Source: Selaginella tamariscina
Taxonomy: Eukaryota; Streptophyta; Lycopodiopsida; Selaginellales; Selaginellaceae
DNA length: 64,000 nucleotides
Reading direction: 5' to 3'
Assembly: GCA_003024785.1 (NCBI GenBank)
Contig: PUQB01000033.1
Span: forward strand, 1-64,000
Position numbers and translations under genes: made by a program. How positions within the stretch are numbered: the first letter of the stretch is position 1; each line of letters starts with the position of its first letter. Under the pieces are notes generated by a model. The model ran no database searches. It saw only the letters and a program-made list of their open reading frames with translations, and was not told where the DNA came from. This document shows, one piece after another, positions 4,686 through 33,375 of this stretch.

Positions 4686-4711
4686 ATGCATGTTGTAACT
4701 AAAATGGCATG
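4686..4711 (+). repeat. Terminal inverted repeat, A-side end of the outer element
   Basis: The 26-bp terminus starts ATGCA and contains TTGTAACTAAAATGG followed by CATG. It matches the termini at 10875, 25663 and 44865 when each is read inward. It lies about 490 bp past the stop codon of gene A1. Confidence 0.7.
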
Positions 4712-8100: not shown

Positions 8101-8238
8101 GGTGTTCACCCATACGTACACACAAGATCCTTGGGCAATATTGTGACATGATGCATTATCATCTCGAACTTCCACAGTTCCAGTGCCAACTATCTCATTG
8201 TTTCGAAGAAGACATACTTTATCTCCAGTATTATACAT
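5198..8238 (-). pseudogene. Gene A1: broken copy of the DUF7869-like element protein
   Basis: This inverted paralogue of gene A2 (22067-25182) can be followed from the ATG at 8238 to the TAA at 5198. It is broken into at least six frame-shifted pieces. An internal deletion of about 71 bp, relative to A2, joins two TTTTC-like tracts near 6251. It removes the 3' end of the 54-bp intron and the first 22 or so codons after it, between the DN..ENKN motif and GHTHEDI. In the last motif this copy reads GHTHEDIN instead of GHTHEDID. It does keep the six-A run (6443-6448, shown as T) that A2 has lost, so A1 shows the ancestral frame there. The leader intron upstream (8245-9485) holds palindrome array 1. 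The copy is clearly non-functional. Confidence 0.85.
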
Positions 8239-8392
8239 ATTGTCCTGCACATAAATAATTGTGTTATTTATGATATATGTTTATGCAATATTTCTAAGAA
8301 ATCATAACTGCGGTTGCTTAATAATATGCATGTGCAATAATACATAATTATATATAAAGATAATATCTCATGCTTTATTAATACAACTGATG

Positions 8393-9369
8393 GGCAAGAT
8401 TAATCCTGCCCATGACTCCATCCGACGAGGAACGATGGGTGGGATTAATCCTGCCGCAGACTCTACCCCTTCGGAGTGAGTCAGCAGGATTAATCCTCGT
8501 CAACTCTACCCCATCAGAGAGAGTCGGTGGGATTAATCCCGCCACCGATTCCCTCCCGCGAGGAAGAATCGGCGGATTAATCCCACCGCCAATTCCCTCC
8601 CGCGAGGAAGAATCGGCGGGATTAATCCCACCGCCAATTCCCTCCCGCGAGGAAAAATCGGTGGGATTAATCCCGCCCTCGTTGGAGAGAGGCGGTGGGA
8701 TTAATCCCGCCGCGGACTCCCTCAAACGAGGAAGTACCGGCGGGATTAATCCTGCCGCCGGATCTTCCTCGTCGGTGAGAGTTGGCGGGATTAATCCCAC
8801 CGCAAATCCCTCTGACGAGGAAGAGGGGGCGGAATTAATCCCGCCTACAACACTGACTATTGAGAATAGGCGGCGGGATTAATCCGTCCACAACACTGAC
8901 GACAGAGAATAGGCGGCGGGATTAATCCCGCCCACAACTCTGATGACAAGGAATAAGCGGCGGGATTAATCCCGCCCACAACTCTCTCAAAAACTATGAT
9001 TTCAAAGAGATTCGGGATGAATCCTGCCCACAAATATTTAAAACAGGAAAGTGCTGGCGAGATTAATCCCGCCACCCCTTCTCTGCCTCCTAAAATGGTT
9101 GGCGAGATTAATCCCGTAAATAACTCTTTCTAATAAACTCAAGGAACTCTTTATTAGTTGAAAGAGTTATCGGCATGATTAATCCCGCCTCTCTTTTTAA
9201 GAGACGGAAAAGCATTGCCCGGACTAATTCTACCATAACTATCAAAGAGATGGTGGCGGGATTAATTCCGCCACCTTTCGAAGAGGCGAAAAAAAATGGC
9301 CGGATTAATCCCGCCGCCCGGCTAACCGAGAATATTAAGTTAGAAGTATATTTAAACGGGATAAATCCC
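8393..9369. repeat. Palindrome array 1, in the leader intron of gene A1
   Basis: About 22 variants of GGCGGGATTAATCCCGCC lie about 40-48 bp apart. Many spacers are dyads themselves, for example GATTC...GAATC around CCTCCCGCGAGG near 8552-8570, so the array alternates two kinds of palindrome. It sits between a leader-exon donor (GTAAGT on minus at 9485) and the acceptor GTGCAG at 8245. ORFs through it encode only GLIPP/GGINPA-type repeats and are not genes. Confidence 0.9.
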
Positions 9370-9485
9370 TAATAACATATATTATAATCCTAATGCATTC
9401 CTAAATCTCTAAATTTGAAAATTTAAGAGAGAATGTAAGAGAGTGAATCTTTATAAATATATCTAAATTTGTTTATAATACTTAC

Positions 9486-9660
9486 TTGTAAACAGCACTG
9501 AAGGCGCTGTGCTTTCTTATAAACAATAGCGCACCCAATTTAATGTCGCTCCTGAGCTGATCATTAAGAAGAAAAAAGAAAATTTGAAGAGTGAAAAATA
9601 AATAAATGAAGAAACCCTTGCTGGAGAAAGAACAAGATCTGAATTTGAGTGAGAAATTAA
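9486..9660 (-). promoter_or_regulatory. Putative untranslated leader exon and start region of gene A1
   Basis: The minus strand ends a conserved block with TTTACAA followed by GTAAGT, a good plant 5' splice site. The block matches the leader of A2 (about 20940-21107), including the AAAGCAC...GCGCCTTCAGTGCTG segment. No translation start in it continues into gene A, so I treat it as untranslated. The exon's 5' limit is not visible. Confidence 0.45.
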
Positions 9661-9929
9661 ATGCATTTTTAAATTTACATGTCAGACCGACAATACTTAT
9701 GTCAGAAATTCGAAATTTTTAAAATAACAGAAAAGAAAATTTAGGATGAGTTAAAACAAATAACCGATAGTCTGATATATATACTCTCCAATTCCAATGA
9801 GTGTTTTAAAATTGCATTTAATGTCATTCAAGTGCTTCAAGCTGTTTAATATTACAAAATTTTTGTAATTATTTTACATTCTTAATATTCAAGTATATAT
9901 TATATATATATAACTAATACAATAAATAA

Positions 9930-10620
9930 ATTGATATATTATTATGTATCATTTAAAATATATTCATAGTCTATTTATTATTATTATTTTCTTAATTACT
10001 CGAGTAATTAATTTACATTTCCTAATATTAATGGGATATTCTTTATTATTTTCTTAATATTCAAAGAATATTCCAATATTAAACCTGATTATCATAATTA
10101 AATTAGTCTTATTCTTAATTATCTTAGTAATTATTCTAAATTCTTATTATTTCAAGAATATTCCTATGTTAAACCTTATTATAAATATTAAATTAATATA
10201 TATTATTAAAACTATATATGACTATATATTAGATAAAATGATGTATTATTATGTATAATTTAAAATATGTTCATAGTGTGTATATTAATATCATTTTCTT
10301 AATTACTTGAGTAATTAATCTTTTTTATATTAATGCGATATTCTTTATTATTTTCTTATTATTCCAAGAATATTTCAATATTAAACATGATTATCATAAT
10401 TAATTTAGTTAATTATTTCAGTACTTGATCTACATTTGTATATATTAATGGGATTTTCTCAATTAATTTCTTATTATTTCAAGAATATTCTAATGTTAAA
10501 CCTTATTATCAATATTAAATTAATATACATTATTAAAACTATATATGGCTATAATTTAAATAACATATATTATTAATATTTTAAGATAGTGTGTTATTAA
10601 TATTATTTCTTAATTATTCG
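9930..10620. repeat. AT-rich tandem repeat of about 305 bp, left copy
   Basis: Two units and part of a third share landmarks such as TATTATTATGTATMATTTAAAATAT, CTYGAGTAATTAAT and GAATATTCYWATRTTAAAC. The same block appears inverted at 19920-20660 and truncated at 36845-37240. It always lies on the A side of the central promoter region of the element. No genes are visible in it. Confidence 0.8.
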
Positions 10621-10874
10621 ATGTTTGTTTTGCACACATATATACAAAATAAAATATTATACACGTGCACACACATTAGAAGTACTTACAGAGACACATA
10701 TGCACACACATGCACATTGCCCCCAAACTTGAGAAATTATACTTCTTTTGAAAAACATCATGTTCAACATGTATGATCTAATGTATCAGTTTATGTGTAT
10801 GTAACACATTGAATTACACATGTAATATATGTAATATCTGTGGTAATACACGTGTAAATAGTGTACTAATATAT
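10621..10874. promoter_or_regulatory. Left half of the outer element's interrupted central promoter region
   Basis: CA-rich sequence that ends GTGTACTAAT-ATAT at the border of the inner element. The right half resumes at 25690 with ATAT-GCAATGTGTAC. Joined, the two reproduce the uninterrupted sequence seen on the minus strand at 19192-19216. Confidence 0.6.
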
Positions 10875-10898
10875 ATGCACGTAACTAAAGTGGGCATG
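10875..10898 (+). repeat. Terminal inverted repeat, B/C side of the inner element
   Basis: The 24-bp end (ATGCACG then TAACTAAAGTGGGCATG) is the inverted partner of 25663-25689. It lacks a TTG trinucleotide and has one A-to-G and one A-to-C difference. It lies about 255 bp past the stop of gene C1 and is preceded by ATAT. Confidence 0.75.
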
Positions 10899-11152
10899 AT
10901 ACGTGAAAATGGGAATAAATTACTAATTAATACTTAAGTTTTAATTATTAATTAATCATTTAATTAATATGTAATTAAGCCTTAAATATTAATTAATTAA
11001 TTAATTAATCCTTCAATAACCTTACTTAGTAAGGAATATTCCTAAAATATCTTAGAATATTCATATTATTCTAAAAATAGTTTACAATAATGAAGAAATA
11101 CTATCAAACATAATTACAAATGAAATCATTTTCTTATCAACATGTTAATTTT

Positions 11153-12317
11153 TTATAAATACTTTCTTTCTATCATACAAAGAAATCTTTTCATTTTGTC
11201 TAAATCATCACTCTCCGGATTAATCAAATCATTTTGGTCAATATCTTGATGTTGTTGCCACCACTTAACACTCTCACGAATGCAATTGGGAGTTGCCATC
11301 CTTGTTAATACATAAGATGTGATAAGAGAAGGTCTGCATAAAGGCTCATCTAAAAACTGACGTTCCTTAAGAATAATATTATAAAGCGCCCGGTTGCTAT
11401 CCTTCATTTTATAAAATTCAATATCACGAGAAAGAAAAGCTTCAGGAAATGTATGATACGGTGGATACTGCTCACAAAAATTTTCGAGATTCTTCTTTCT
11501 GAGGCACGTATCCAAGTAGTTCACTAGCTCATCCATGATATCGGTATCAGAATATGGATCGAAAGTGATTGGATGAATACAAGCAATGTTTTGGTTGAGC
11601 ATAGCCTTCTGAGGAGAGTCGTCTACTACTAACATCTGTGCGTTCTTCATTATCCTTAAGCGACTGATCTCCCCATGAGTCCCAATTATTCTTTCATTCT
11701 TGAAGAAGTATGGCTTGCTTTCCTTTCTTATATTTGAAATTCGAGAGGTTTATGACACATTCGCTGGTCAAAAATCCAATCTTTACGAATCACCTCTTCT
11801 GCAACACTACAATGTTTCTTAAGTAAATTCAACAGCGGTGTTAAGTTATGAATCTGCATGCATGACCAAATCCCCACAAGCGCACCCATCTCCTTAAGCT
11901 TTTGAAAGAGACGATCCAACCCTGGACGAAAAATAATATCATATCGAAATTTACCATGACAAGGAATGAAATCTCCTTGTTTGATTTCTTTTTTCTATCC
12001 TGGGGCCTTTGTCGATGAAGCAGAACACCATTGACATCCAACAACACAATATGGCCATGAGTAACATGAGATGGCGTTGCCTCTTGAATACTTTGCAAAT
12101 CACTTGTTTGCTCCCTTTCACATTTATCCGTTGCCACTATCTCGTTGCCTATCCCTTCATCATTTAATTGTACATCATCCTTACAAGATTCAGATATTGC
12201 ATGCGCTGAAGAAATTGATTTCGGAACTGAAGCCAATAAAAATGATGATGAAGTGGCCCCCATGGTAACGATGTTTTGAGCTGCATTATTATCCATTTCC
12301 TGCATGAACTCTGTCAT
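11153..12317 (-). pseudogene. Gene C1: FCP1-like HAD phosphatase (frame-shifted)
   Basis: The product would be a HAD-superfamily protein of the FCP1/NLI-interacting-factor type, a family that dephosphorylates Ser/Thr residues such as those of the RNA polymerase II tail. Seen here: motif I LLDVNGVLL near 12040-12015 (the second Asp of the usual DxDx is Asn, a variant I know from plant members), RPGLDRLFQKLKEMGALVGIWS for motif II, and LVVDDSPQKA for motif III near 11630, followed by HPITFDPYSDTD. An N-terminal extension of about 90 acidic and Ser-rich residues precedes the domain. The chosen ATG at 12317 begins MTEFMQEMD. The frame is lost in an A-run after motif I (about 11985-11990) and shifts again near 11740, before the intact C-terminal 165 residues. 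It lies about 270 bp downstream of B1 on the same strand. Whether it is separate from B or spliced to it is unclear. Confidence 0.75.
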
Positions 12318-12589
12318 TCTGACATGTGGCACAAGAAATTGTCGCCAAACCCCTCTCTTACCTCATGGCAATGCTGAAAATCCATGTTCTCAATTATTTC
12401 ATTACATCTGCAAAATGATAATTAGCTGACCTTAAAATTATCAAGGTATATTATTTACCTTGTTAATGTGTGACCCATGTTTGAACTAAAAGCTTCATTA
12501 ATCCTTGAGAATTTATTTTCTGTACAAATATAAAAGAAATATACAAAAATGCCTTATGTTACACTCATTTACAACTATTCGTCACTCTA

Positions 12590-15500
12590 TCAATTCATTA
12601 TCAATTCTTCTTCGCTATTACCTTCTGAGTGAGGCGAAGAAGGTCTAAGCCGCTTGTGAGATGGTTCAAGATCTTCTGCATCTTCTATTGATGTTTCCAT
12701 GGGTCCTGGAGTGTGCGAATGTTCTGTACTCCTCGAGATAACTTCCGGTCTAATATCTGATTGAAGTTCGTTCTCAGACTCCGAGATTGAACCAGATTCA
12801 CCTTCAGAGCTATCGCACTTATCTGGAGGGAACTTTCTCAAATACGCCTTTATGGAATTTGGGGTACTCAGTTGAGACCCAATCTATCCACTTGTTCAGG
12901 TCCTCAACCATGGTCTTATCCTTTTCAACGGCAAACACACATGTATGCCGAAGGTAACACTCCTTCAAGACGGACCCCCTAGTGCAGTAGTCAAAAACCC
13001 ACGCATCACTGTGAGGACCCCTAATCAAGTTGACGATGCTCCGTGCCGCTTGACTTGTAATGTTTGGATAACGTACATTGTCGAATACGTCACTCATACC
13101 TATCGGTGTATCGGATGGAGGTTCAGGGCCGTTGGAGTGCAAACAGATGCCTGGCCAGTCATTTGGAAGCTTGAAATTGTTTGGCGCATTCCTAACAACC
13201 AAGTGAACAACGGTATCAATGCACTTGGGATTAGCATCGTTCATATAAAATCCTGTCCAACGATGTCTATTCTTCTTGGCGAAGGCGAAGGCAAAAGTAT
13301 CGGTGACATGAGCAAGAATCAAGAAATAAATACCTGAAAAAGTAGGTATCAGTGAAGAGCGCAAGCATGAATTCAATAATAAATACCTTCTATGTATATG
13401 CTTGCACGGCTAAGTTTCTCCACCAGATCCTCTAGTGCCCTATCTGTCGAAAGATTTTTTGACACCCGCCGATCCATCACGAACAATTGAAACGGTTTCC
13501 TACAAGCAGTGATGTTACCCCATAAAGTCTCCGAATCTAACAACAAACATCTGTAGGGCTTGTCGTGATTTGTAGCATCCTCCTTTATAAGGTTCAATTC
13601 GGTTCTCCGCTGCTGAAGGACTGCCATAAGAGAAGGCGTCATCCCAATGTTCTCCTTTTTGGCGTTGGCGTGCAATAGATTCTTGCCCAGATCTTCCGAT
13701 TGGTTCACCCATTCGACAAGCATATCATCGTTCGTCACATGCAAATATTTGCTGACCTCTTCATATGTTGAAGTCGAGGTCCAACCCAGTTTGTGGCAGT
13801 GTATTCCCAACCACTCCTTGAAATGCCTGACCGTCTTCAACTCCATTGCCTTGAGATGAAAAGGAGAGGTTGGGCTGCTGTTATTAATTTGTAGTTTGCC
13901 ATCGATCACCAAATCAGCCAAGACTTCCATCTCCTCCATCGTTGTTCCATTTAAAGGCTTCAACCATGTGAGCTTGAAATCGTTGTCTACATCCTTTGTA
14001 GATTGAACAGACTTAGCCTTCGGCGTCTTACTGGGTTTCTTTGCAGACTTTTCTGAGGGCTCCCCTTCACTTGTCTGCTTCTTCTTCAGTGTTCCTTTTG
14101 AAAAGGATTCCATAATCCCCAACCATTTGGCAAAGATCTTATCTTCGGGGCAAGAAATCAACATCATCAGAAAGGATGTTTCCTTCCCGCCCACCTGGGC
14201 AAAATCAACTGCTGCAATTTCTTCAACTCTCTGAGGAAAAAGACAGATTAATATACCGGCGAGATAAATCCCGCCCAAACAATTTGCTTACCCGGTATTC
14301 CGCAGATTGTGTATTCCCTGCGGTAGCTCTTTGTGGTCGCTGAAGAGATTCCCACACGGCTCATAAACTTTTGCTGTTGTAGTGGTTGGTGTCGGCAGCG
14401 TCCCATTCCGCCGATAACTTATGGTACTGCTCGATTGTGAGATTCGGCTTAGCTAAAAACGCCGATCTTTTTGTCAGCTTCTCACGGGTATGCTCGGAAA
14501 GTTTTGTTGCCATCGTTCCTTTGTTGTGTTCCTCGAGAAGTCGTTGGGCTGCCGTTATTGTGTGCTGGCCACTAATGATGTAGTACTTGATAGATTTTTT
14601 ATTCTCCGTCTGAATCTTCATGAGTTGTTCTGGTGTTGTGATCCAGACTTTGTCAGCGCCCTTCCTTCTTTCATAGTATGGACACAAAACAGCATTATGT
14701 GGAACGGTATAAGAATTGTCGTCCTTCATCTTCTCCATGAGCTCAGCTACACGTTCCTGGTTGAGTGGCCTGTAATTGAAGTTTGGGTTGACGCTGCAAT
14801 ATTTAACCCTACAAGGATAAATCTTATCATCCAACATCATTTCCTTGTGACTTATTGCAGCATGAGATGCCACAGGTGCAGCTGACAAAACGATTGATGA
14901 TTTTCTTTTGCGATCCGAATCAACATGTGTGATCCCCGACTGCAGCTGTTCTAGTGTTCTCGGTACACTCTTCCAGCTCCCAAAGCTCCCTAAGCAAATT
15001 GAACGTGATCTGTAGAGAACCTGAGACCGAGCCACCCTCTCAATCTCCATTATGATGTCGCTGTGTTCTTCTTCAATGTGAAGAGGGAAGATTGCTTCAC
15101 TTGCTGATTTTCTGTATTGTGAAGCAATATCTCCTGACAATACACCTACTCGATGAGTCTGAAGATTTTCGAAGTAGACATCCAGATGGATCCCCTCCAT
15201 AGATGGGCTTTCGTTGAGTTGAAGAAGAACTCCAAGGTCAACATCATTAGTGAACACGTGAACGTCATTATCCACAAGTCGACAAAACCACCCGAAATTA
15301 ATGTTGTAACTGACGACCTCTGGATCCGAGAACGTGACATTGGATGGAACAAGGCATATGTGTCGAGCATCGTCCAATCTGGGTTCGCAGCCTGCTTTCG
15401 GGTGCTTGACTAGCGAATCTACTTTCCATTGTTTTGCTTGTCCATGAGATGTGACAGAGGTTAATTTGACAGCAGCCATGGTTGCTCCAATGCGCTTCCC

Positions 15501-15714
15501 ATTTATCTTAAAATATGGCCAAGTTGATTCCAGAATCCCCCTGCCCATCTCTTCTCCTGCTCTTGTCTTTAATGTCACCTCAATTCCACATCTGAATACA
15601 AAAATGATTAGTTCAAGTATCCGAGTATAACAGATTTTATTTTAATTCTTACCCAGAATTTGACGACGACTCCATACTAATGACTCGATCTCCTTGTTTG
15701 ATCAAATCGTCCTT
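12590..15714 (-). pseudogene. Gene B1: ParB/Srx-like plus methyltransferase-like protein (best copy)
   Basis: Four exons are supported by GT-AG signals and by comparison with two paralogues: 15714-15653, 15591-14292, 14230-13387 and 13333-12590. The likely ATG is at 15675 (MESSSN), giving about 970 residues. Exon 1 starts with a GDRVISM stretch that resembles the start of gene A. Residues encoded near 14800-14530 look ParB-like: NPNFNYRPLN..RVAELMEKM, then YYIISGQHTITAAQRLL (compare the DGQHR/GxHR signature). A Lys-rich linker follows. The third part, VFDYCTRGS...CVFAVEKD near 13000-12920 after GIYFLILAHVTD, recalls the C-terminal motifs of N4/N6 DNA methyltransferases, but the DPPY and FxGxG boxes are degenerate. 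An acidic tail ends the protein. Two defects: about 20 bp lost near 14366, and a net 2-base loss near 12860. The domain calls are from memory of the families and are tentative. Confidence 0.6.
14231..14291 (-). other. Intron of gene B1 containing a lone palindrome
   Basis: This 61-bp GT-AG intron holds one degenerate palindrome unit (GGCGAGATAAATCCCGCC on plus). The same intron carries the same unit in B2 (29982-30043) and B3 (about 41534-41593). The unit is therefore old in this intron and is not confined to the leader-intron arrays. Confidence 0.7.
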
Positions 15715-15819
15715 CTGCAAAATAATACACTATAAATATAAATTATATAAAAACGCACACACACTTGTATAAACCCGAATATACAAAAATAATACACAGA
15801 GAGAAGTAGACGTAATTAA

Positions 15820-15902
15820 CTGTCCGAAGCTCACATTTGTGTTAGTGCAAAAGAAAGATAACATTTCGTTTTAGAACCACCACAAATGTGAGCTCTGGAC
15901 AG
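15820..15902. repeat. Conserved hairpin upstream of gene B1
   Basis: Arms of 22 nt, CTGTCCRAAGCTCACATTTG-TG and its complement, occupy 15820-15841 and 15881-15902 and enclose a 39-nt loop. The same structure with the same loop length lies at 28371-28453 and, with a longer interval by indel count, at 39888-39970. It sits about 105 bp before the first coding exon, inside the leader intron. Confidence 0.85.
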
Positions 15903-16015
15903 TTTTACATAGATTCCTAGCTTTTACTCGAAATATTATGATAAGATGATAAAAGTAAATAAAATGAGATATGCAACTTATATATACTAATACACATATA
16001 TATTCACATGGAAGG

Positions 16016-17610
16016 TGCGGCGGGATTAATCTCGCCACCCCTTCAATGCCTCCTGAAAGAGTGGGCGGGATTAATCTCGCCACCTTTCTGGAGGCCTTGA
16101 ACGGGAGTGCGGAATTAATCTTGCCACCCTTCTCGGTTCAGAGAGAACTGGGCAGGATTTATTTCTCACACCCCTTCAGTGACTCCAGAAAGGGGATTAA
16201 TCTCGCCCACCATGTAAGTGATGGTTAAATGAATTTCCCCACCCTTCCCAATTCTCTCCATTGGTATGTTGAAAACCTTCTACGTCTCAGACAGAAACGT
16301 TTGGGATTGGTCCGACTCACCAATGGAGAAAACAAAGGAAGGGTGGCGGGATTCATTCCTCCAACAGGCATTGAAGACTCGGCGGGATTAATCCCGCCGC
16401 CCAGGGCCTTCACTCGGTCCCTATGCGGCGGGATTAATCCCGCCGGACGCCAATTCCCTGCGCGGAATCGGGCGGGATTAAATCCGCCGCCTAGGCACTT
16501 CAGGCAGGCCAATGGCGGCGGGATAAATCCCGCCCGATTCGCCAGGGCATGCGTACGCGGCGAGATTAATCCCGCGTCCCAGGCCCTTCACTCAGGCCTT
16601 AGTCGGCGGGATTAATCCGCCGAACGCCAATGCCCTGTGCGAAATCTTGCGGGATTAATCCCGCCGCCTAGGCCCTTCAGGAAGGCCAATGGCGGCGGGA
16701 TAAATCCCGCCCGATTCCGCGCAGGGCATGCGTACGCGGCGGGATTAATCCCGCCCACCATGTAAGGGATGGTGAAATTAATCCCACCACCCTTCTCAGT
16801 TCCCTCCATTGGTATTTTGTAAACCTTCTCCGTCTCAGACAGAGTTAGTCGGGATTGATTCAACATACCAATGGAGGAATAAAAGAAGGGTGGCGGGATT
16901 AATCCCGCCACCGGGTAATGAAGGTTAGAGACTAATCCGCCGCCCTCTCGTAAATCATGCGCTCACACATATATATTGGCCGGCATTTTGAACAGGGATG
17001 GGTGGGGGCGGGATTAATCCCGCCGCTTATATCCTGCGGAAGTGCCTAAGCGGCGGGATTAATCCGCCGCCCTCCGCGAAGGGCATGAGCGTGGGGCCGG
17101 ATTAATCCCGCCGTTCATGTCCTGCGTGAATTCCCTGGGCGGCGGGATTAATCCCGCCGCCTTACGCGCAGACATGTCATGCAGGTTCTTCGGTTAGCCT
17201 TCCGTGCAGGATCTTTCATGCAGGCTCTTCGGTTAGCCTCATGAGCGGCGGGATTAATCCGCCCATCCCCTGTAAATGCCCTGCGCGGAATCCGGCGGGA
17301 TTAATCCCGCCCATTAGGGCCTTCACACAGGCCATTGCCGGCGAGATAAATCCCGCCGCATTCGCGCAGGGCATGGGTGAGCGGCGGGATTAATCCCGCT
17401 GCCGAGGCCCTTCACGCAGGCCATGGGCGGCGGGATTAATCCGCTGCTCTTCGGTTTGTCGTAGAGCGGCGGGATTAATCCCGCCGCCCATAGCCTGCGT
17501 GAAGGGCCTCGGCGGCGGGATTAATCCCGCCGCCATGGCCCAACCATATAGCGGCGGGATTAATCCCGCCGCCGAGGCCATAAACCTATAGCGGCGGGAT
17601 TAATCCCGCT
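16016..17610. repeat. Palindrome array 2, in the leader intron of gene B1
   Basis: About 30 palindromes based on GGCGGGATTAATCCCGCC. Between 16381 and 16738 they start at intervals of 46, 44, 46, 42, 46, 42, 47 and 44 bp. A higher-order duplication of about 176 bp is visible (16490-16565 against 16665-16745, both with the GGGCATGCGTACGCGGCG segment). Spacers such as GGCCCTTCACGCAGGCC and GCCCTGCGCGGAATC recur in both orientations. A separate inverted motif with TCTGAGACG...CAATGGAG occurs at 16255-16325 and 16800-16880. Confidence 0.9.
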
Positions 17611-17639
17611 CGAGGGGCTTAGCGTGTGTGCGAGAGATA

Positions 17640-18368
17640 AAATTAATAAATAAAAAAATTATACAGATAAAAACACACACATATATATATGTGTGTGTGT
17701 GTATATATATATATATTATATGTATGTATGTATGTATGTATAGGAGTGTACGTGTGTGTGCAAGAGATAGATAAATAAATAAAATTATACAGTACTGGTA
17801 CACATAATATATGTGTGTACATAGGTATATATATGTGTGTATATGTATATCGTGTGTATGCGTGTGAGCGAAACAAATAAAATCATACAGATAAACAAAC
17901 ACACACACACACACATATATATACACAGGAGTGTGCGTGTGTGTGCGAAAGATAAAACTAATAAATAAATAAAATTATACAGATAAACACACACATATAT
18001 AGTGTGTATATAGATATATAATCCATAGAGAAAGAGAGAGAGTCTGTGAATATATAAGCATATATATAAACTAGTGTTGTATGTATGTATATATGTATAT
18101 AGGTATATATATATGTGTATATGTATATTGTGTGTATGCGTGTGTGAGCAAACAAATAAAATCATACAGATAAACAAACACACACACACACACATATACA
18201 TACACAGGAGTGTGCGTGTGTGTGCGAGAGATAAAACTAATAAATAAATAAAATTATACAGATAAACACACACATATATATATGTGTGTATATAGATATA
18301 TAACCCATATGAATATATAAGCATATATATAAACTAGTGTTGTATACTATTTGTTAATATGCATTGAT

Positions 18369-18420
<52 letters not shown>

Positions 18421-18700
18421 GCAGTGTGCGTGTGTGTGGGAGAGATAGATCAATAAAAAAAATTTACAGATACTGGTACACATAATATATGTATGTATAT
18501 ATGTATATAGGTATATATATATGTGTATATGTATATCGTGTGTATGCGTGTGTGAGCGAAACAAATAAAATCATACAGATAAACAAACACACACCACACA
18601 CACATATACATACACAGGAGTGTGCGTGTGTGTGCGAGAGAAAAACTAATAAATAAATTTATACGCACACTCCTATACATATATACATACATACACACAC
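17640..18700. repeat. CA/TG microsatellite block, B1 leader intron
   Basis: Long runs of CA/TG and TA/TATG, with a unit of roughly 300-350 bp (GTGTGCGTGTGTGTGCGAGAGATAAA and CATACAGATAAACAAACACAC) repeated about three times. No gene is visible. The predicted ORFs are low-complexity. Equivalent blocks lie at 26600-27324 and 38460-39020. Confidence 0.9.
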
Positions 18701-18715
18701 ACACACAGATCTCAC

Positions 18716-18790
18716 CTGTGTGCACAGCCGCCGCCGCCGATTTCACAGCCGCCGCCTCTTGAAACCCTAAGAATATACCTAAACCCTAAA
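18716..18790 (-). promoter_or_regulatory. Putative leader exon of gene B1 with GCC repeats and a telobox
   Basis: On minus, a GGCGGCGGC-rich stretch ends CACACAG followed by GTGAGATC, a good donor. It is preceded by GGGTTTC and TTTAGGGTTTAGG telobox-like copies. The same arrangement occurs at 26555-26608 (copy 2) and 38320-38454 (copy 3). A leader intron from 18715 to 15715 (about 3.0 kb) would hold the microsatellites, palindrome array and hairpin. The assignment is inferred from conserved splice signals. Transcription is not shown. Confidence 0.45.
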
Positions 18791-18899
18791 GGAATTAAAT
18801 ATATATATTAACCCTAATAGAATATTCCTTCTGAGAATATACTTAAACCCTAAAAAGAATAAAATATAGATTCGCCCTAAACGAATATTCTTTCATTAT

Positions 18900-19920
18900 A
18901 TTATTAGCGCGTGCGTGTGCGTGGGTGTATCACATACACCCCAAAAATATAAATCATGCAGGGATTTAACATGTGTGTGTCCATGAGAGTGTTAAAGTTT
19001 CATGTGTATCAATACATACATACACATTGCATATATTAATACACATAATATATACATACACACGTGTATACACACAGACATACATACATATTACATGGGT
19101 TTAGGGTTTAGGGTTTAGGGTTTTGGATTTAGGATGGATCATGCATGGTGTGTATGTATGAGAGAAGAGAGAGTGTTGAAAAATTATTTTTGTACACATT
19201 GCATATATTAGTACACATATATACTTACACATATTATACACAGATATACATACATAGTATATGAGAGAAGAGAGACAGTACATATTATGGATCATGCATG
19301 GTGTGTATTATACACACAGACATACATACATATTAGTACATAATATTGAGAGACCGAGTACATATTATAGATCATGCATGGTGTGTATGTTTGAGAGAAG
19401 AGAGACAGTACATATTAACATGGATCATGCATGGTGTGTATGTATGAGAGAAGACAGAAAGTACACATATATACATACAGAGTACACATATATACATGCA
19501 CACGTGTATACACACAGACATACATACATATTACATGAGTAAATTCATTGTGTTACATATTAGGGTTTAGGGTTTAGGGTTTAGGATGGATCATGCATGG
19601 TGTGAAGAGAGAGTGTTGAAAAATTATTTTTGTACACACATGTATACACAGGGTTTAGGGTTTAGGGTTTAGGGTTTGCTCCCAACAAGCTTAATATAAA
19701 TATTACACATGTAAATTCAATGTGTTACATACACACAGATTGAGTACATATATCATACATGCGTTGAACATATGATGTTTTCAATAAAGAAGCAACATAT
19801 TTCTTCAGTTTGGTTTAGGGTTGTGCATGTGTGTGCATATGTGTTTTTGTAAGTTCTTGTAATGCGTGTGTAAATTTATGATTGTGTTTATATATGTGTG
19901 CAAAACAAACATCGAATAAT
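18900..19920. promoter_or_regulatory. Central divergent intergenic region with telomere-like arrays
   Basis: This region lies between the 5' ends of B1 (minus) and A2 (plus). It has TTTAGGG arrays at 19097-19123, 19561-19584 and 19651-19677, and about five copies of a unit with GGATCATGCATGGTGTGTAT and AGAGAAGAGAGA at 19130-19460. GTGTACTAATATATGCAATG (minus, 19192-19216) is an uninterrupted version of the site into which the inner element jumped. There is no coding sequence. A two-way promoter is inferred from the position. Confidence 0.6.
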
Positions 19921-20660
19921 TAAAAAATAATATTAATAAACACACTATGAACATATTTTAAATTATACATAATAATATATGATTTTATCTAATATATAGC
20001 CATATATAGTTTTAATAATATATATTAATTTAATATTGATAAAAAGGTTTAACATTGAAATATTCTTGAAATAATAAGAAATTAATTGAGAAAATCCCAT
20101 TAATATATCAAATGTAAATTAAGTACTCAAATAATTAACTAAATTAATTATCATAATCATGTTTAATATTGGAATATTCTTGGAATAATAAGAAAATAAT
20201 AAAGAATATCCCATTAATATAAAGAAGATTAATTACTCAAGTAATTAAGGAAATGATATTAATATATATATTATTAAAACTATATATGACTATATATTAG
20301 ATAAAATGATGTATTATTATGTATAATTTAAAATATGTTCATAGTGTGTATTAATTTAATATTGATAATAAGGTTTAACACATGAATATTCTTGAAATAA
20401 TAACAAATTAATTGAGAAAATCCCATTAATATATACAAATGTAGAATAATTACTGCAATAATTAAGAACAAGACTAATTTAATTATGATAATCAGGTTTA
20501 ATATTAGAATATTCTTCAAATATTAATAAAATATTAAAGAATATCCCATTGATACTAGGAAATGAAAACTAAATACTCGAGTAATTAAGAAAATAATAAT
20601 AATAAACAGACTATGAATATATTTTAAATGATACATAATAATATATCAATTTATTTATTG
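19920..20660. repeat. AT-rich tandem repeat of about 305 bp, inverted copy
   Basis: Reverse-complement counterpart of 9930-10620, with the same landmarks (GTTTAATATTRGAATATTC, ATTACTCGAGTAATTAA). It holds two full units and a partial one. It lies on the A2 side of the central region. No gene is seen. Confidence 0.8.
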
Positions 20661-21107
20661 TATAAGTATATATTTATATATATATATATAATATAAATAT
20701 ACTTGAATACTAAGAATGTAGAATATAGTCTAAAATTTCGTAATATTAAACAGCTTGAATCACTTGAATAACATTAAATGCAATTTTAAAATACTCATTG
20801 GAACTGGAGAGTATATATGTCAGAGTGTCGGATATTTGTGTCAACTCATCTTAAATTTTATTTTCTGTTCTTTTTAAAAATTTGAATTTCTGACATATGT
20901 ATTGTCGGTCTGACATGTAAATTTGAAAATGCATTTAATTTCCCACTCAAATTCAGATCTGGTTCTTTCTCCGGCAAGGGTTTCTTCATTTCTGTATTTT
21001 TCACTCTTTAGATCTTCTTTTTTCTTCATAGTGATCATCTCAGGAGCGAGATTAAATTGGGTGCTATTCTTTATAGGAAAGCACGGCGCCTTCAGTGCTG
21101 TTTACAA
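20661..21107 (+). promoter_or_regulatory. Promoter-proximal region and putative leader exon of gene A2
   Basis: AT-rich sequence precedes a conserved block (about 20940-21107) that ends TTTACAA before GTAAGT at 21108. The next usable acceptor is GTGCAG at 22060, just before the A2 start codon. The matching block at 9486-9660 supports it. The 62-residue frame running through the block is not conserved in the left copy and is not called as coding. Confidence 0.45.
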
Positions 21108-21273
21108 GTAAGTATTATAAACAAATTTAAAAATACTTATAAAGATTCACTCTCTTACATTCTCTCTTAAAATTACAATTTAGGGGTTTAGGAATGCATT
21201 AGGATTATAATATATTCCGTTAGGGATTTATCCCGTTTAAATATCCTTTTAACTTAATATTCTAGGTTAACCG

Positions 21274-21914
21274 GGGCGGCGGGATTAATCCGGCCATTTC
21301 TTTTTCGCCTCTTCGAAGAGGTGGCGGGATTAATCCCGCCACCATCTCTCGGGCAATGCTTCTCCGCCACTGAAAAAGAGTGCGGGATTAATCCCGCCGA
21401 TAACCTTCTCAACTGATGAAGAGTTACCAGAATTTATTAGAAAGAGTTGTCGGCGGGATTAATCCCGCCAACCATTTTAGGAGGCAGGGAAGGGGTGGCG
21501 GGATTAATCTCGCCACCACATCCCTGTTTTAAGGATTTGGGGACAGGATTTATCCCGAGATCTCTTTGAAATCATAGTTTTGGAGAGAGTTATGTGCGGG
21601 TTTAATCCCGCCACCCATTCCCCGTCGTAAGAATTGTGGGCGGGATTAATCCCGCCTTGGACTCCTCCGAAGGAAGAGCCGGCGGGATTAATCCCGCCGC
21701 CTCCTCCTCGGGGAGAGTCGGCGGGATTAATCCCGCCGGACTCCCCCGGGAGGAAGAGCGGCGGGATTAATCCCGCCGGCTCTTCCTTGTCGGAGGGAGT
21801 CCAAGGCGGGATTAATCCCGCCGACTCTCTCCGAAGGGGTTGAGTCGGCGGCGGGATTAATCCCGCCGACCGTTCCTCGTCGGAGGGATTCGTGGGCGGG
21901 ATTAATCCCGCCCA
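21274..21914. repeat. Palindrome array 3, in the leader intron of gene A2
   Basis: About 14 units of GGCGGGATTAATCCCGCC, many perfect, lie about 40-46 bp apart inside the predicted intron 21108-22060. Spacers such as CTCCTCGGGGAGAG and CTTCCTTGTCGGAGGG are weak dyads. Spacer content is related to array 1 (the other A-side array) rather than to arrays 2, 4 and 5. Confidence 0.9.
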
Positions 21915-22066
21915 TCAGTTGTATTAATCAAACATGAGATATTATCTCTAAACATAATTATGTATTATTGCATATGCATATTATTAAGTAACCGTAATTC
22001 AGATTTCTTAGAAATATTGCATAAACAGATATCATAAATAATACAATTATTTATGTGCAGGACAAT

Positions 22067-25000
22067 ATGTTTAATACTGGAGATAAAGTATGTCTTCTTC
22101 GGAACAACGAGATAGTTGGCACTGGAACTGTGGAAGTTCGAGATAATAATGCATCATGTCACAATATTGCCCAAGGATCTTGTGTGTACGTATGGGTGAA
22201 CACCATTTACAAGCATGTTGAGGTTCTGGGAATGGAATTTGAGGAGGGTTCTCCTGTATTGTGGAATTTGGATGAAGTCAAGGCTGACACAGAATATGCA
22301 GAGTCACAAACAAATAGTAGCACGAGTTTACCAGATGATGGCTTGCCTGCTGTGATGGATGAGGTGATTCTCTTTCTTCGTGAGATTGAAGTCGGAAGAG
22401 GCATCATCACAGCTATAAATCCAATGGAAGCAGTGTCAGAAGAGAAACTAGGGTCCGACTTCGTGGGTGTAGTTGTGACAGAGGTTTCACCTAATGGCAC
22501 ATTGTATCCTGGATCCCTCGTGAGGTGGCGAACATCTGAATTAAGACGGCAAGATGGTTCAACATATTCTGGGTTGGATTTCAATAATAACAACCCGGAA
22601 GAACAACTCATATTTGAAGAGGTTCCTTGCATTGGTCCTATTGTAAGAAAAAGGCGATTCATGGGTTGTAGATCTTCCCCTGCAAGTTTCAGCAAGAGGG
22701 TAAAGATGGATCCTACATCTTCCGAAAGTGTTACGAGCATTTCCACGATTGACTGTTGCAAGAAGAAGTGTTGTCAGATGGCAGACCGGAATGAAATTAC
22801 CCAATGTAGACATGTCTTTCGTATGCTCACCCAAAAGCAAAGGCATGAGTTTGTATATGCTGCACTAACTGGGTGTATTGATGGAATGGCCTCGGACACA
22901 GGTTATCAGAGTACATCCATGGTATTTAATAAGGTGGCCATCTGCTTCAAAGCTTGGTACAGTATATACGGGATCCCAAAGACCACGTTCTACCGTCGGA
23001 GGGATGAGTGGCTAGATGGAGCGCGAACCTCAGTTCATGGGAACACTCGCTTGGTCAAAACCCGCTCTCACATCATGGCAGCCATAGAGATACTCAAGGC
23101 TTTTGTGGAAGCAAATGCAGACAGGATGCCTCACAAATGCCGAACCACAAATGCAGGGGTCAGGGAAAATCTCAAGGTTTTACCTTCAATCTACACTCAA
23201 TTGAAACTGTGTGAACATGTGAACAAGTGCCTCAGTTTGATGGGGCTCCAAGCAATCTGCACTGGTACCTTCAACAACATATGGAATACTCATTTTAAGG
23301 ATGTGGAGATTGCAAAACACTCTAGCTTTTCTAAGTGTGACACTTGTACATCATTGAAGGCTGCAGAGGCTTGTGCAAAAACCTTGGTGGAGATCACTAC
23401 CATTCAAAGGAAGATGGAGGCCCACATGATTGCACAACAAACTTGCCGGTCTCAGTACTATGCACACCGCATGCTTTCTGTGTCACGCCCATCAGAGTAC
23501 CTGTGCTTGATCCATGACAAGATGGATCATTCAAAGACCAGCATTCCAAAGCTCTTTGCAACACCAAAGTGCCTTGGAAATGTCATGAAACTTCCGATTT
23601 CATTGACAGGTGTGCTAACACATGGACACGGTTGTGAGTCATATGGACACTTTTCACTTCCACATTGGTCTAGCGACTCCAATTTCACTATTGGGTCGTT
23701 AGCCATGTGTTTCAGAAACCTTGAAGCCCACTCACAGACAAGTCCTATCAGTGATCTCAAAGTGAAGAAACAACACCTTCAACCTTTACATAATGCTCTC
23801 ATGAACACATCTGCACTTGAGGCTACTTGGGAATATGAGAGGCATTGTCAGCAACCTGCACAAAAACAGATGGCCCTGTTGAGAGTTCAGGTTCAGTGGA
23901 GGGATCTAGCTCAAATAGTGTACATGTGTCCTCAACATCAAATAAGCTTCCTCGTCATTTGCTTTTACAGATGGATAATTGTGCAGGCGAGAACAAAAAT
24001 AGGTAAATCATTTTACTTAAGGGTTTCTCAAGCTCATACTTACTTTTATTTTCTAGATATGTGCTAGCATACTTGTCAATGCTTGTTGCCAAAGGTGTGT
24101 TTGAAACAATCACGCTCAGTTTCCTTATGGTTGGTCACACTCATGAAGATATTGATGCGTTCTTCAGCAAGGTCTCCAACTCTACAAAAAGGACAAGTGC
24201 ACTTACCTTACCGCATATGATGAATCTTTTTGAAAATTGCATCTCCAAAAAAAGTTGTGCTTTGCTTGTGACTGAGGTGCCAGACTTCAAAAAATTTCTC
24301 AAGGAGTATATAAAAGGGAGTGATTCTTTAGTTGGTCACCTTGTGCCGCTACAATTCTTTTTCTCCATACGAGATGGTATACCTATTATGCAGTACAAGT
24401 TACGGCCATCAGAGCAGGAGTGGTTACCGAAAGAGGGCTTAATGCTCTTCAAAAGTGGAGAGGATGGAAAGCCACTTCTCCCAGAAGGACAACCAGACCC
24501 TATTCCATTGAGTGCCCAGCTCAAGGAACAAGAGGTTATTATTGATGGCATCAAAAAATATGTGGCATGGGTTCAAAAATCGATGCCAAAGAATTCTGAT
24601 AAGGCAACTGGTTACTCAGAACTATATAAGCATGTGGTCAACTATTGGGAGACTGTTGTTCGAGAGTTGGAAGGGCCTACTGTCACAAGTACAGAATTGC
24701 AACACCCTTTCTGGCCTAAAACAAGGTGGCGAGAGGAGATTGAAATGACATCACTGAGCATAGACGACATAGAAGCCAGTAGTGATGTGGAAGTGCAAAC
24801 CCCACACTTTGTTGGACAAAGGAACCAAAAACCTAAAGCATACTTTGATTGCTGCAAGGATCTTCAAAAACTAATGATGGTTCTCATTACTCCAGATGCG
24901 TCATATAATCAGCCTATTTGGATGGGTCAAATTATCGACACACCTGAAGTAATCACAAAAAATAGTATTGTTAAGGTTGCATGGTTCAAACCACAAAAAA

Positions 25001-25182
25001 GGCGACACGAGAAGGAGAGCGAAAGATATAATGGATGCCTAGAGAAAACATGGTCTCCCAATCAAAAAGACCCAGCATGTTTTATAAATGTTAAATCCAT
25101 TCGATATGGGTGGATGTCAAGAAGCGTTGATAAAGTCACGATTAACAAAACTGCAAGGGAATGTATGTTTTCTGAAGCTTAA
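22067..25182 (+). CDS. Gene A2: DUF7869-like protein, candidate transposase (one frameshift)
   Basis: Exon 22067-24002, a 54-bp intron 24003-24056 (GTAAAT...TTCTAG), exon 24057-25182; about 1,020 residues once a one-base loss in the A-run at 23862-23866 is allowed for. A1 keeps six A's there and reads on. The ATG follows a GTGCAG acceptor. In order: an N-terminal GDKV...CHNIAQGSCVYVWV region resembling the DUF8039/Tnp1-like module of plant transposons; a second related block ending RWRTSELR; a Cys-rich patch CCKKKCC; a helical region with YGIPKTTFYRR and HGN; TKCDTC-like FSKCDTCTSLK; then KMDHSKT (Asp at 23525), MDNCAGENKN (23974) and GHTHEDID (24133-24156). This order is what I know of DUF7869 proteins. 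The spacing of acids suggests an RNase H-like (DDE) nuclease, unproven. It is the least damaged gene of the system. Confidence 0.75.
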
Positions 25183-25662
25183 AGCAATTACAAAATTATA
25201 AAATATCATATATTTAATATTCATAATTATTATAAACTCTTTAATAATAGTACCAAATTGTATACTTAACTATATAAATTTAAAAAATGATATGGAAGAT
25301 TGACTATATTATTATAGGATTTTATATATATATTATTACTACTACAAATTTTTAATTAATAATGTTATATTTAAATATTAATATTTTAATAACAACATCA
25401 ATATTTATATAATGTACCTCTTATGCTCTTCCTTAATTGTTATATTAGGCAATATATTATATAATTTAATACATTCTACTTTTATAATGTTATTAATTTT
25501 TGTTCAATGAATGCTATAATTTATTAAAGGGTAGAATACAAAATAGAATATTCTAAAGAATATTCTCTTTTCAAACATATATTCTAAAGAATATTCCTTT
25601 AATATTAGAAAATGCTAATTAAATAGCTAAAATTGCTAATTATTAGGAAATGGGACTATAGC
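25183..25662. other. AT-rich 3' flank of gene A2
   Basis: AT-rich sequence without genes, with several GAATATTC-type subterminal repeats (about 25553-25600). The 3' flank of the B/C side contains similar GGAATATTC repeats (11030-11070, 33205-33220, 44700-44725), so the subterminal regions of both ends resemble each other. Confidence 0.6.
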
Positions 25663-25689
25663 CATGCCCATTTTAGTTACAACTTGCAT
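25663..25689 (-). repeat. Terminal inverted repeat, A side of the inner element
   Basis: The 27-bp end reads inward (on minus) ATGCAAG-TTG-TAACTAAAATGGGCATG and pairs with 10875-10898. ATAT follows at 25690, duplicating 10871-10874. Confidence 0.75.
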
Positions 25690-26608
25690 ATATGCAATGT
25701 GTACGATTTTCATTTGTTAACACTCTATCTCTTCTCTCATACATACACAGTGTCACCATGCGTAATCCCTCTTTCATACATACACACCATGCATGATCAT
25801 GATCCATAATATGTAGCCTATCTCTCTTCTCTCATAATACACACCATGCATGATCCATAATATGCATTGATGTTACAATATTATGTAGTATGTATAATGT
25901 ATATCTATGTATAACACTCACTCCTTTCATACATAAACACCATGCATGATCCATCCTAACTAAACCCTAAACCCTATGTAACACATTGAATTTACACATC
26001 TAATATGTATGTATGTCTGTGTGTATACACGTGTGTAGGTATATGTGTACTAATATATGCAATGTGTATGAATTTAATTTGTTAACACTCTTTCTCTTAT
26101 CTCATACATACACACCATGCATGATCCATATTAATATGTACTGTCTCTCTTCTGTCAAATATACACACCATGCATGATCCATAATATGTATTGCCACTCT
26201 TCTCTCATACATACACACCATGCATGATCCTGTATTCTATCTCTCTAATATTAATATGTACTAATATGTATGTATGTCTATGTGTATAATACTATGTGTG
26301 TATATATGTATTGCTGCACGTGAAACTTTAACACTCTCATGGACACACACATGTTAAACCCCTGCATGATTTTTATTCTTGGGTGTATGTGATACACCCA
26401 CGCACACGCACACGCTGATAATATAATGAAAGAATATTCGTTTAGGGCGAATCTATAGTTTATTCTTTTAAGGTTTAAGTATATTTTTAGAAGGAATATT
26501 CGATTAGGGTTAATATATATTCTATTCTTTTTAGGATTTTGGTATATTCCTAGGGTTTCAAGAAGTAAGGCGGCGGCTATGAAATCTCCTTCTCTCTCTC
26601 ACACACAG
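25690..26608 (+). promoter_or_regulatory. Right half of the outer element's central region and leader exon of gene B2
   Basis: This region starts at the ATAT junction. It contains about six copies of the CATACACACCATGCATGATCC unit, short AAACCCTAAACCC telomere-like runs near 25965-25976, a second intact GTGTACTAATATATGCAATG target-like site at 26045, and two TTTAGGG-bearing repeats at 26440-26560. It then has a GGCGGCGG segment ending CACACAG before GTGAGATC at 26609. No coding sequence. Confidence 0.5.
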
Positions 26609-27271
26609 GTGAGATCTCTCTCTCTCTCACACGCACACTCCTGAGTTTATTTATTTATTTTTATTCACATATATATTTATGTGTGTGTATCTTAATAATA
26701 TAATTTAGATCTCTATCTCTCGCACACACACGCACACTCGTATACATACACACACACACACACACACACACAATATATATATATATCTGTGTGTTTGTGT
26801 TTATGTATCTGTATTATATTAATTTATTGATTTTATTGATTTGTTAATTGTATCTCTCGCACACACACGCACACTCCTGTATATATGTGTGTGTGTGTGT
26901 GTGTTTGTTTATCTATATGATTTTATTTGTTTCACACACGCATACACACGATATACATATACACATATATATATATATTTAACCTATGTACATATATACA
27001 TACATATATTATGTGTACCAGTATCTGTATAATTTTATTTATTTATCTAGTTCTCTCACACACTCGCACACTCCTGTATATACATATACATATACATAAA
27101 TATACATATACATATACATATATATGTGTGTGTGTATCTGTATAATTTAATTTATTTAGCACACACAAACAATATACATATACATATACATATGTGTGTG
27201 TGTATCAGTATAATTTTATCTGATTTGTCTATCTCTGGCACACACACGCACTCTCCTACACACACATATAC

Positions 27272-27324
<53 letters not shown>
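26609..27324. repeat. CA/TG microsatellite block, B2 leader intron
   Basis: Runs of CA, TG, TA and TATG, including about 38 bp of pure TG just before the first palindrome (27285-27322). No gene seen. It is the counterpart of 17640-18700. Confidence 0.9.
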
Positions 27325-27325
<1 letters not shown>

Positions 27326-28254
27326 CGGCGGCATTAATCCCGCCGCTATATGATTAGCCCCTCGGTGGCGGATTAATCCCGCCGCTATATGGTTAGACCC
27401 TTGGCGGCGGGGTTAATCCGCCGCTCATTCGTTATCCTCATAAGCGGAGGGATTAATCCTGCCGCCTTCAGGTAAGCTATTCGGTTAGCCTCATGAGTGG
27501 CGGGATTAATCTCGCCGTCATTTCAGGTAGGTTATTCGGTTAGCCTCATGAGCGGCGGATTAATCCCGCCGCCATTTCAGGTAGGTTATTCGGTTAGCCT
27601 CATGAGCGGCGGGATTAATCCCGCCGCCATTTCAGGTAGGTTATTCGGTTAGCCTCATGAGCGGCAGGATTAATCCCGCTGCCCAAGGCTAACCGAAGAG
27701 TGGCGGGATTAATCCCGCCGCCTACGCATGCCTTGCGCGGAATCTGGCGGGATTTATCCCGCCGCCATTGCCTGCCTGAAGGGCCTAGGCGGCGGGATTA
27801 ATCCCGCCGATTCCGCGTAGGGCATTGGCGTCGGCGGGATTAATCCCGCACTAGGGACCGAGTGAAGGCCCTGGGCGGCGGATTAATCCCGCCGAGCCTT
27901 CAATGCCTGTTGGAGGATGAATCCCGCCACCCTTCCTTTTTCTCCATTGGTGAGTCGGACCAATCCCAAACGTTTCTGTCTGAGACGTAGAAGGTTTACA
28001 ACATACCAATGGAGGGACTGGGAAGGGTGGCGAGATTCATTTAACCATCCCTTACATGGTGGGCGAGATTAATCCCGCTCCTTTCTGGAGTCACTGAAGG
28101 GGTGTGCCAAATAAATCCTGCCAAGTTCTCTCTGAGACCGAGAAGGGTGGCAGATTAATTCCGCACTCCCGTTCAAGGCCTCCAGAAAGGTGGCGAGATT
28201 AATCCCGCCCACTCTTTCAGGAGGCATTGAAGGGGTGGCGAGATTAATCCCGCC
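27325..28254. repeat. Palindrome array 4, in the leader intron of gene B2
   Basis: About 20 palindromes. Between about 27470 and 27665 a unit of about 55 bp, spacer TTCAGGTAGGTTATTCGGTT-AGCCTCATGAG plus one palindrome, is tandemly repeated four to five times, showing expansion by whole units. The later part mirrors array 2 (the TCTGAGACG spacer at about 27975 and CCTCCAGAAAGG near 28180). Confidence 0.9.
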
Positions 28255-28370
28255 GCACCTTCCATGTGAATATATATGTGTATTAGTATATATAAGTTGC
28301 ATATCTCATTTTATTTACTTTTATCATCTTATCATAATATTTCGAGTAAAAGCTAGGAATCTATGTAAAA

Positions 28371-28453
28371 CTGTCCAGAGCTCACATTTGTGGTGGTTCT
28401 AAAACGAAATGTTATCTTTCTTTTGCACTAGCACAAATGTGAGCTTTGGACAG
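28371..28453. repeat. Conserved hairpin upstream of gene B2
   Basis: Arms at 28371-28392 and 28432-28453 (CTGTCCAGAGCTCACATTTG-TG with its complement), loop 39 nt. One position of the stem differs between arms (AGAGC/AAAGC). It lies about 100 bp before the exon at 28555. Confidence 0.85.
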
Positions 28454-28554
28454 TTAATTCCGTCACTTCTCTCTGTGTATTATTTTTGTATATTCGGGTT
28501 TATACAAGTGTGTGTGTTTTATATGATTTGTATTCATAGTGTATTATTTTGCAG

Positions 28555-33355: not shown

Positions 33356-33375
33356 CATTCCCACACAACGTGCAT
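33356..33375 (-). repeat. Degenerate terminal repeat, B/C side of the outer element
   Basis: Reads on plus CATTCCCAC then ACAACGTGCAT. Compared with the other termini, about seven bases (TTTAGTT) are missing. It directly abuts the gypsy LTR remnant that starts ATATTC. Confidence 0.55.

Follow-up and report, generated by a model that had tools for sequence, protein, structure and literature searches.

In a stretch of 64,000 nucleotides from Selaginella tamariscina (contig PUQB01000033.1, positions 1 to 64,000; referred to below as the window), positions 10875-25689 are one copy of a terminal inverted repeat (TIR) DNA transposon with exactly these ends. The boundaries are the same as in other copies, and the transposon family to which the copy belongs is young, very abundant and recently amplified. 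Gene A, a DUF7869 gene on the forward strand that, judging from conserved residues, is likely the transposase, lies opposite genes B and C on the reverse strand. Each unit runs outward to its terminus, and arrays of an 18-bp palindrome lie upstream of both units. An earlier note, made from the letters of the window alone, had described one mobile unit with inverted ends of 24-27 bp, an ATAT duplication and divergent gene units pointing outward. Its observation is confirmed in our analysis and its interpretation is partly supported, while it was silent on the palindrome arrays and on the insertion of this copy into an older one. The features considered are as follows.

10871..10874: target-site duplication ATAT, left, based on the sequence and on 4-bp duplications at other copies
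10875..25689: the complete copy of the transposon, 14,815 bp in length
10875..10898, forward strand: left TIR, ATGCACGTAACTAAAGTGGGCATG, 24 bp, without 3 bp that are found in many other copies
11153..12317, reverse strand: gene C, FCP1/NIF-like, with frameshifts here; one open frame of 402 amino acids in copy C960
12590..13333, reverse strand: last exon of gene B seen, from open frames and splice signals
13387..14230, reverse strand: middle exon of gene B, from open frames and splice signals
14258..14275: palindrome site in a gene B intron
14292..15591, reverse strand: main exon of gene B, containing the piece earlier called ParB/Srx-like
16019..17610: array of 29 palindrome sites (at most 4 mismatches each) upstream of gene B, with most spacings at 39-47 bp
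21278..21912: array of 13 palindrome sites (at most 4 mismatches each) upstream of gene A
22067..24002, forward strand: exon 1 of gene A, with the start of DUF7869 and acidic motifs one and two; this copy is frameshifted near 23865
24003..24056, forward strand: intron of gene A, 54 bp, GT...AG
24057..25182, forward strand: exon 2 of gene A, DUF7869 with GHTHEDID
25663..25689, reverse strand: right TIR, CATGCCCATTTTAGTTACAACTTGCAT, 27 bp, complement ATGCAAGTTGTAACTAAAATGGGCATG
25690..25693: target-site duplication ATAT, right, based on the sequence

Copies in the host genome

The host assembly (300.7 Mb in 1,391 contigs) contains 3,421 exact matches (1,716 + 1,705) to the 17-bp TIR core TAACTAAARTGGGCATG and none to the same pattern written backwards, which would correspond to about 1,700 elements if each has two intact ends. 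Among the first 100 sites listed, neighbouring cores that lie 10-19 kb apart point inward (+-) in 22 pairs, versus 6 pairs otherwise oriented (-+ in 3, ++ in 2 and -- in 1). When the left 301 bp were used as a query, the best 40 of 932 candidate places were all 97-100% identical, and with the right 304 bp the best 40 of 1,118 candidate places were all 100% identical. It should be noted that the right query contained the ATAT flank and favours copies with ATAT at that position.

Ten copies were fetched from the left-end match list and compared by blastn. Four of these (C1137, C960, C549 and C391) span both ends over about 14.7-15.0 kb, with long segments that are mostly 95-99% identical and are found in unchanged order. 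In a fifth, C520, the right end is altered, while the others (C1193, C1091, C704, C943 and C136) are interrupted, internally deleted, divergent or run off a contig end; in C704, an internal deletion joins 13730 to 24326 and the right end lies past the contig end. The census of the TIR core, the inward pairs and the fetched copies all bear out one mobile unit with coinciding boundaries. The search of the assembly with the TIRs and the proteins, which the earlier note had proposed as a check, yielded further copies with the same gene order and with 4-bp duplications. Neither of the two findings that it had named as speaking against a unit, namely copies with boundaries elsewhere and A and B occurring apart with no shared ends, was made.

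Single-base insertions or deletions break the reading frames of the window copy and of copies L009-L026 at differing places. These may be errors of long-read assembly that make intact copies look broken. At L109 (G000 C1:1857180-1857525), we found a derivative of about 240 bp that has ends of both types and lacks genes in its interior. Its inward cores are 208 bp apart and are accompanied by left- and right-type subterminal sequence, with the left hexamer altered; judged by these ends, it is a relative of the family that resembles a miniature inverted-repeat transposable element. At L052, the right end of the copy on contig C784 is followed, after a GCTA duplication and one base, by the left end of another copy, an arrangement that we read as two copies standing head to tail.

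Ends and target-site duplication

The left and right TIRs, which have the lengths given in the earlier note, differ from one another by two substitutions and one 3-bp gap, and the termini of the element read ATGCAC. Because the left end of many other copies is ATGCACGTTGTAAC, a few bases longer, the left TIR of the window copy is considered a short variant.

For the duplication, we analyzed 30 end pairs that had not been selected by their flanks, drawn from three sets of 5, 9 and 16 pairs. The third set comprised 16 of 19 G/A-type pairs, as those of 10.1, 11.8 and 18.1 kb fell outside the range of 13.5-15.7 kb and were excluded. Also outside the 30 were C224, which has no recognisable right end, and five of the ten fetched copies, in which the right end was not found or not available. 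Identical 4-bp flanks were found in 14 of the 30 pairs, while shuffled partners matched 0.86 times on average and at most 6 times (100,000 shuffles). The matching 4-mers were ATTA and ACTT (each twice), CTTA, GCTA, GATA, AATA, ATAC, TTAT, AAGA, TAGA, CGTT and CTAT. In five of the 14 (C520, C213, C1b, C2b and C3b), one base of the right-hand hexamer is changed or lost, and four of these five were read by eye. In a sample of ten that is biased towards ATAT, as the query ended in ATAT, six of the seven pairs with both ends match, and the remaining three had no left end in the fetched stretch. Since the 4-bp duplications vary among copies, ATAT is not part of the TIR, and that assignment was dropped; the duplication as TATA, as 5-6 bp or as TA was likewise dropped once the varied 4-bp pairs appeared.

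Gene A

Gene A spans 22067-25182 with one intron. The DUF7869-like label that it had been given holds, with a Pfam E value of 6e-27 over exon 2, and in copy C391 the frame is open through to the splice site, unlike in the window copy. We found 110 relatives of A, including named proteins from Riccia, Physcomitrium, Ceratodon and the sea anemone Exaiptasia; the plant proteins with names are 30-36% identical to A and the one from Exaiptasia is 28% identical. In an alignment of 44 relatives chosen from the 110, D192, D195 and D393 are present in all 44 and D353 in 43, and the Asp of the third motif, GHTHEDID, is likewise found in all 44. By sequence alone, these residues are compatible with D/D/D. 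DUF7869 is matched by all 44, and each of five further Pfam families by a single member, among them Transposase_23 (TNP1/EN/SPM) with an E value of 0.00066. The bryophyte and cnidarian proteins have the domain and the acidic motifs in common with A. In precomputed annotation, PF26133 is present as an additional domain in 20 of the 110 and is not reported for A; our Pfam scan of the 44 gave no PF26133.

In the host genome, DUF7869 gave 300 matches (the best 150 of 4,249 candidates scored), as compared with none in any of 14 control genomes. In the prokaryote collection, three contigs of metagenome-assembled genomes (MAGs) with DUF7869 were found and were not used; they are most likely eukaryotic contamination. 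The 4.3-kb contig CADCWO010000071.1 (L072), from a 'Synechococcales' MAG, encodes a DUF7869 relative with 30% identity over 31-688 and is probably eukaryotic contamination. No mention of DUF7869 was found in the literature searched. The present element would give this domain, which has no assigned function and was found here in bryophytes and a cnidarian, a probable role as a transposase, together with defined ends and duplications.

Genes B and C

Gene B has at least three exons, and a further 5' exon beyond the three seen is likely. In the window copy it is frameshifted, as are A and C. When a 188-amino-acid piece of B was searched in the host genome, the best 150 of 4,885 candidate places were all 99-100% identical, with no stop. 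The ParB/Srx label that had been attached to B is without support from Pfam, NCBIfam or PDB sequence searches, and the same holds for the methyltransferase label of its C-terminal half, which matched no methyltransferase family in Pfam or NCBIfam. The only Pfam matches of B, to DUF1015 (E 0.028) and PH_BUD3_C (E 0.023), are both below the cut-off, and PDB matches of B pieces to designed repeat proteins were taken as chance. By eye, ISGQHTITAAQRL in B resembles a ParB motif; the ParB and methyltransferase labels serve as leads only.

For gene C, the FCP1-like label was upheld, as the open frame of copy C960 matches Pfam NIF with an E value of 2.4e-12 and 47.2 bits, against a cut-off of 21.8. 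The usual catalytic motif of FCP1/NIF proteins is DxDx(T/V). In the nine copies in which it was seen, the first catalytic motif of gene C instead reads DVNGV, with the second Asp replaced by Asn, and phosphatase activity is therefore doubtful. The PDB sequence matches of gene C, to p27, look like chance.

Both genes show signs of coding constraint when the window copy is compared with the two other copies in the window that are described below. Ratios of nonsynonymous to synonymous substitution rates (dN/dS) relative to the older copy were 0.27, 0.15 and 0.67 for the segments B1, B2 and B3, 0.55 for C, and 0.56 and 0.45 for A1 and A2. Relative to the third copy, they were 0.43, 0.23 and 0.95 for B1, B2 and B3 and 0.37 for C. 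The ratio is thus below 0.7 in nine of ten comparisons and, for the B and C segments, in seven of eight. Stop codons that were skipped numbered 10 in A and none in B and C of the older copy, and 10 in B and 5 in C of the third copy. It should be considered that decay after insertion pushes these values up.

Genes B and C also move with A. Using the best 150 A places and the best 150 B places, which do not amount to a census, we found 18 A-B neighbour pairs less than 13 kb apart, 16 of them in the arrangement of the element (9.35-11.2 kb apart) and two not. Moreover, the B/C side aligned past 16 kb in eight of the ten fetched copies, and both genes are present in all three copies within the window.

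Distant relatives of B seem to form a smaller set of their own (63 matches when 40 of the 212 candidates were scored), and such places come in pairs spaced about 10-12 kb from each other. One decayed relative (L069) is about 40-50% identical to B in most aligned pieces. Another place, C1276:60800-70700 (L075), contains two distant B fragments and has no match to A or C; it also holds a RING-finger-like open frame, possibly a captured gene. At C999:130174-130737, a B piece lies inside an open frame of 1,943 amino acids, versus the 478 usual there, perhaps as an in-phase 45-bp array is read through.

Palindrome arrays

The sequence GGCGGGATTAATCCCGCC is a perfect 18-bp palindrome with 82 sites in the window (up to 3 mismatches), while none are expected in shuffles. 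Genome-wide, it has 27,128 exact sites, and its reversed control has none. Within the arrays, spacing is mostly near 45 bp and the spacers are nearly random, with information per column over 78 sites of 1.58 bits in the palindrome and 0.20 in the flanks. Array lengths vary between copies. The older copy in the window has both equivalent arrays and the third copy has the B-side array; in addition, four of four array-adjacent stretches fetched from contig C1 contain A or B genes.

Similar sites accompany B in more distant settings. The site in the gene B intron has matching sites at 29998 and 41548 in the other window copies and at L069:4337. In L069, similar sites lie 44-47 bp apart upstream of the B relative, in addition to the one in the same intron, although only one of the upstream sites is within 4 mismatches and the others, as well as their spacing, were read by eye. 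In a second B relict, four GGGATWWATCC-type sites are found upstream of the B fragment.

Tens of thousands of identical palindromes in one genome might affect the control of nearby genes and DNA methylation. The very large family of young copies would also allow a protein of the element to be studied jointly with the palindrome that is its candidate site.

Proposed mechanism and alternatives

We are largely confident that the element is an autonomous-type TIR DNA transposon with gene A as its transposase. Catalysis by A, binding by B and the role of C are steps that we infer, and they would proceed as follows. Gene A would recognise the 24-27 bp TIRs and would cut with three conserved acidic residues, for which the motifs DKMD, QMDN and GHTHED are the candidates; joining of the element at staggered cuts would then leave the 4-bp duplications. 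B and C would be genes of the element that are under selection and moved with A, rather than chance passengers. The two arrays, of which one immediately precedes each divergent unit, are putative binding sites for an element-encoded protein. The most likely array binder would be B, which, by analogy with the TNPA protein of En/Spm, might control both units and perhaps the assembly of a transposition complex. That B acts at the palindrome arrays is proposed here tentatively, at somewhat less than even chances. C, with its altered first catalytic motif, could, speculatively, act on host transcription or on B or A via phosphate-dependent binding.

Several points weigh against this proposal and need to be considered. 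A profile of gene A matched no chain in a PDB sequence search. Among candidates chosen by shared words from about 5.8 billion proteins, no homologue at E <= 1e-3 was found for gene B (residues 260-920; 7,990 candidates scored) or for gene C (1,811 candidates scored), and we can therefore only infer the functions of both. The last B segment is weakly constrained, as seen from its ratios of 0.67 and 0.95, and all of the dN/dS values come without a significance test and leave out every codon with a gap or with a stop in the copy compared. The contrast in information per column is inflated, since the sites were picked by their core, and the third copy is not in the count. Finally, 16 of the 30 end pairs not selected by flank have no matching duplication. 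These include C1c, C21 and C66, in each of which the left end is unclear, and the 16 may be recombinant or damaged copies.

The arrays could instead serve as targets for silencing by the host, or be structural repeats (hairpins, tandem expansion), having been brought along with the promoter regions. As would be expected from methylation, C-to-T or G-to-A changes at CpG positions, which cover 4 of the 18 palindrome positions, account for 13 of 30 mismatches in the A-side array of the older copy and for 13 of 29 in the array of the third copy, and the variable array lengths would also fit. The B-side array of the older copy, however, has only 3 such changes among its 29 mismatches. The palindrome is, moreover, kept between nearly random spacers, which would not be the outcome of simple tandem expansion, and strongly differing copies have sites in corresponding positions, one of them in an intron. 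We consider this explanation rather unlikely. As for B itself, it might be a very diverged ParB-type protein, with the 18-bp palindromes as its parS-like sites. Were this true, the transposon would carry its own array-nucleated complex for regulation, end pairing or segregation, with about 27,000 such sites over the host genome; we hold this to be a long shot.

Capture of gene fragments is frequent in plant transposons, and B and C might accordingly be captured host genes that travel as passengers, with A and the TIRs alone being of importance. The NIF/FCP1 domain of gene C is common in plant host genes, and no role of B or C can be read from their sequences. Passengers would not, however, be expected to persist as B and C do on the B/C side of eight of the ten fetched copies and in all three window copies, with dN/dS below 0.7 in seven of eight comparisons and with the best scored B pieces nearly identical and stop-free, nor to have palindrome-like sites upstream of their distant relatives, and this explanation is thus regarded as improbable. 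A Helitron, a long terminal repeat element or an integrated DNA virus with chance inverted ends, to which the large size and the several genes could point, is hardly credible. The TIRs are defined and the 4-bp duplications are varied, the latter being evidence against a Helitron; among 60 pattern-matched stretches from IMG/VR, no relative of A was confirmed; and the scanned frames gave no Pfam match to a capsid, polymerase, Rep or reverse transcriptase.

Comparison with known transposons

The earlier note knew of no described family with this gene set. In part this stands, as our literature search, which covered titles and the openings of abstracts among the matches listed, revealed no transposon with such genes. 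The element nonetheless fits the published descriptions of Sola, which is the most likely superfamily, although the comparison is by those descriptions only. In the available parts of these sources, Sola elements have a DDD transposase, a 4-bp target-site duplication and variable TIRs of at least 11 bp, and are mostly 2-9 kb with some above 15 kb; Sola2 duplications are AT-rich, the companion gene of Sola2 is Fanzor1, and Sola1 is listed for the moss Physcomitrella (PMC10741241, PMC3627910, PMC9033089). The likeness, which is one of description, thus lies in the 4-bp duplications, the conserved Asp motifs, the size and the moss relatives. Genes B and C and the palindrome arrays, in contrast, are not mentioned for Sola in these parts.

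In En/Spm, according to the part of the source available, the transposase is accompanied by TNPA, a diverging DNA-binding protein whose targets are numerous short repeats with a GC-rich part that can be methylated (PMC2613891). Our element may resemble En/Spm (CACTA) elements, some of which are large, in combining a transposase with a putative repeat-binding protein, and the likeness would extend to how they work. Its termini, however, are ATGCAC rather than CACTA/CACTG, and gene A has no tnp2 match in Pfam. The duplication is of 4 bp, while that of En/Spm is 3 bp, and the palindromes lie in two internal, promoter-side arrays, unlike the subterminal repeats of En/Spm. Membership of En/Spm (CACTA) was thus rejected on termini and domain content. 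Kolobok elements, which target TTAA, offer another likeness, as this DDD/E superfamily also keeps lineage-specific companion proteins. The companion genes differ, however, and TTAA is absent among the 14 duplications; in the part of the source available, those of the Kolobok lineages are KolX, a RecQ helicase and nucleases (PMC9587614). For the arrangement as a whole, in which a probable transposase gene faces two unfamiliar companions and palindromes precede both units, no description was found in the parts of the literature that were available.

Nesting of copies in the window

The window copy is inserted inside an older inverted copy, which it splits in two, and a third copy lies further downstream.

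4686..10870, reverse strand: older inverted copy, gene A half, split by the insertion
25694..33375, reverse strand: older inverted copy, gene B/C half, the other half of the split copy
36843..44891, reverse strand: partial third copy, 87% identical in DNA along its B/C half, with no gene A match

Long segments of the older copy are 91-94% identical to the window copy, and a central stretch is 82% identical. When the flanks of the insertion are joined, the junction is spanned by alignments to interior sequence of six of the ten other copies, at 81-86% over 78-107 bp. The two sequences that flank the older copy itself do not match. Microsatellite-rich stretches at 17640-19560 and 25770-27300 are common to the centre of the element and to its flanks, because the flanks are the interior of the older copy.

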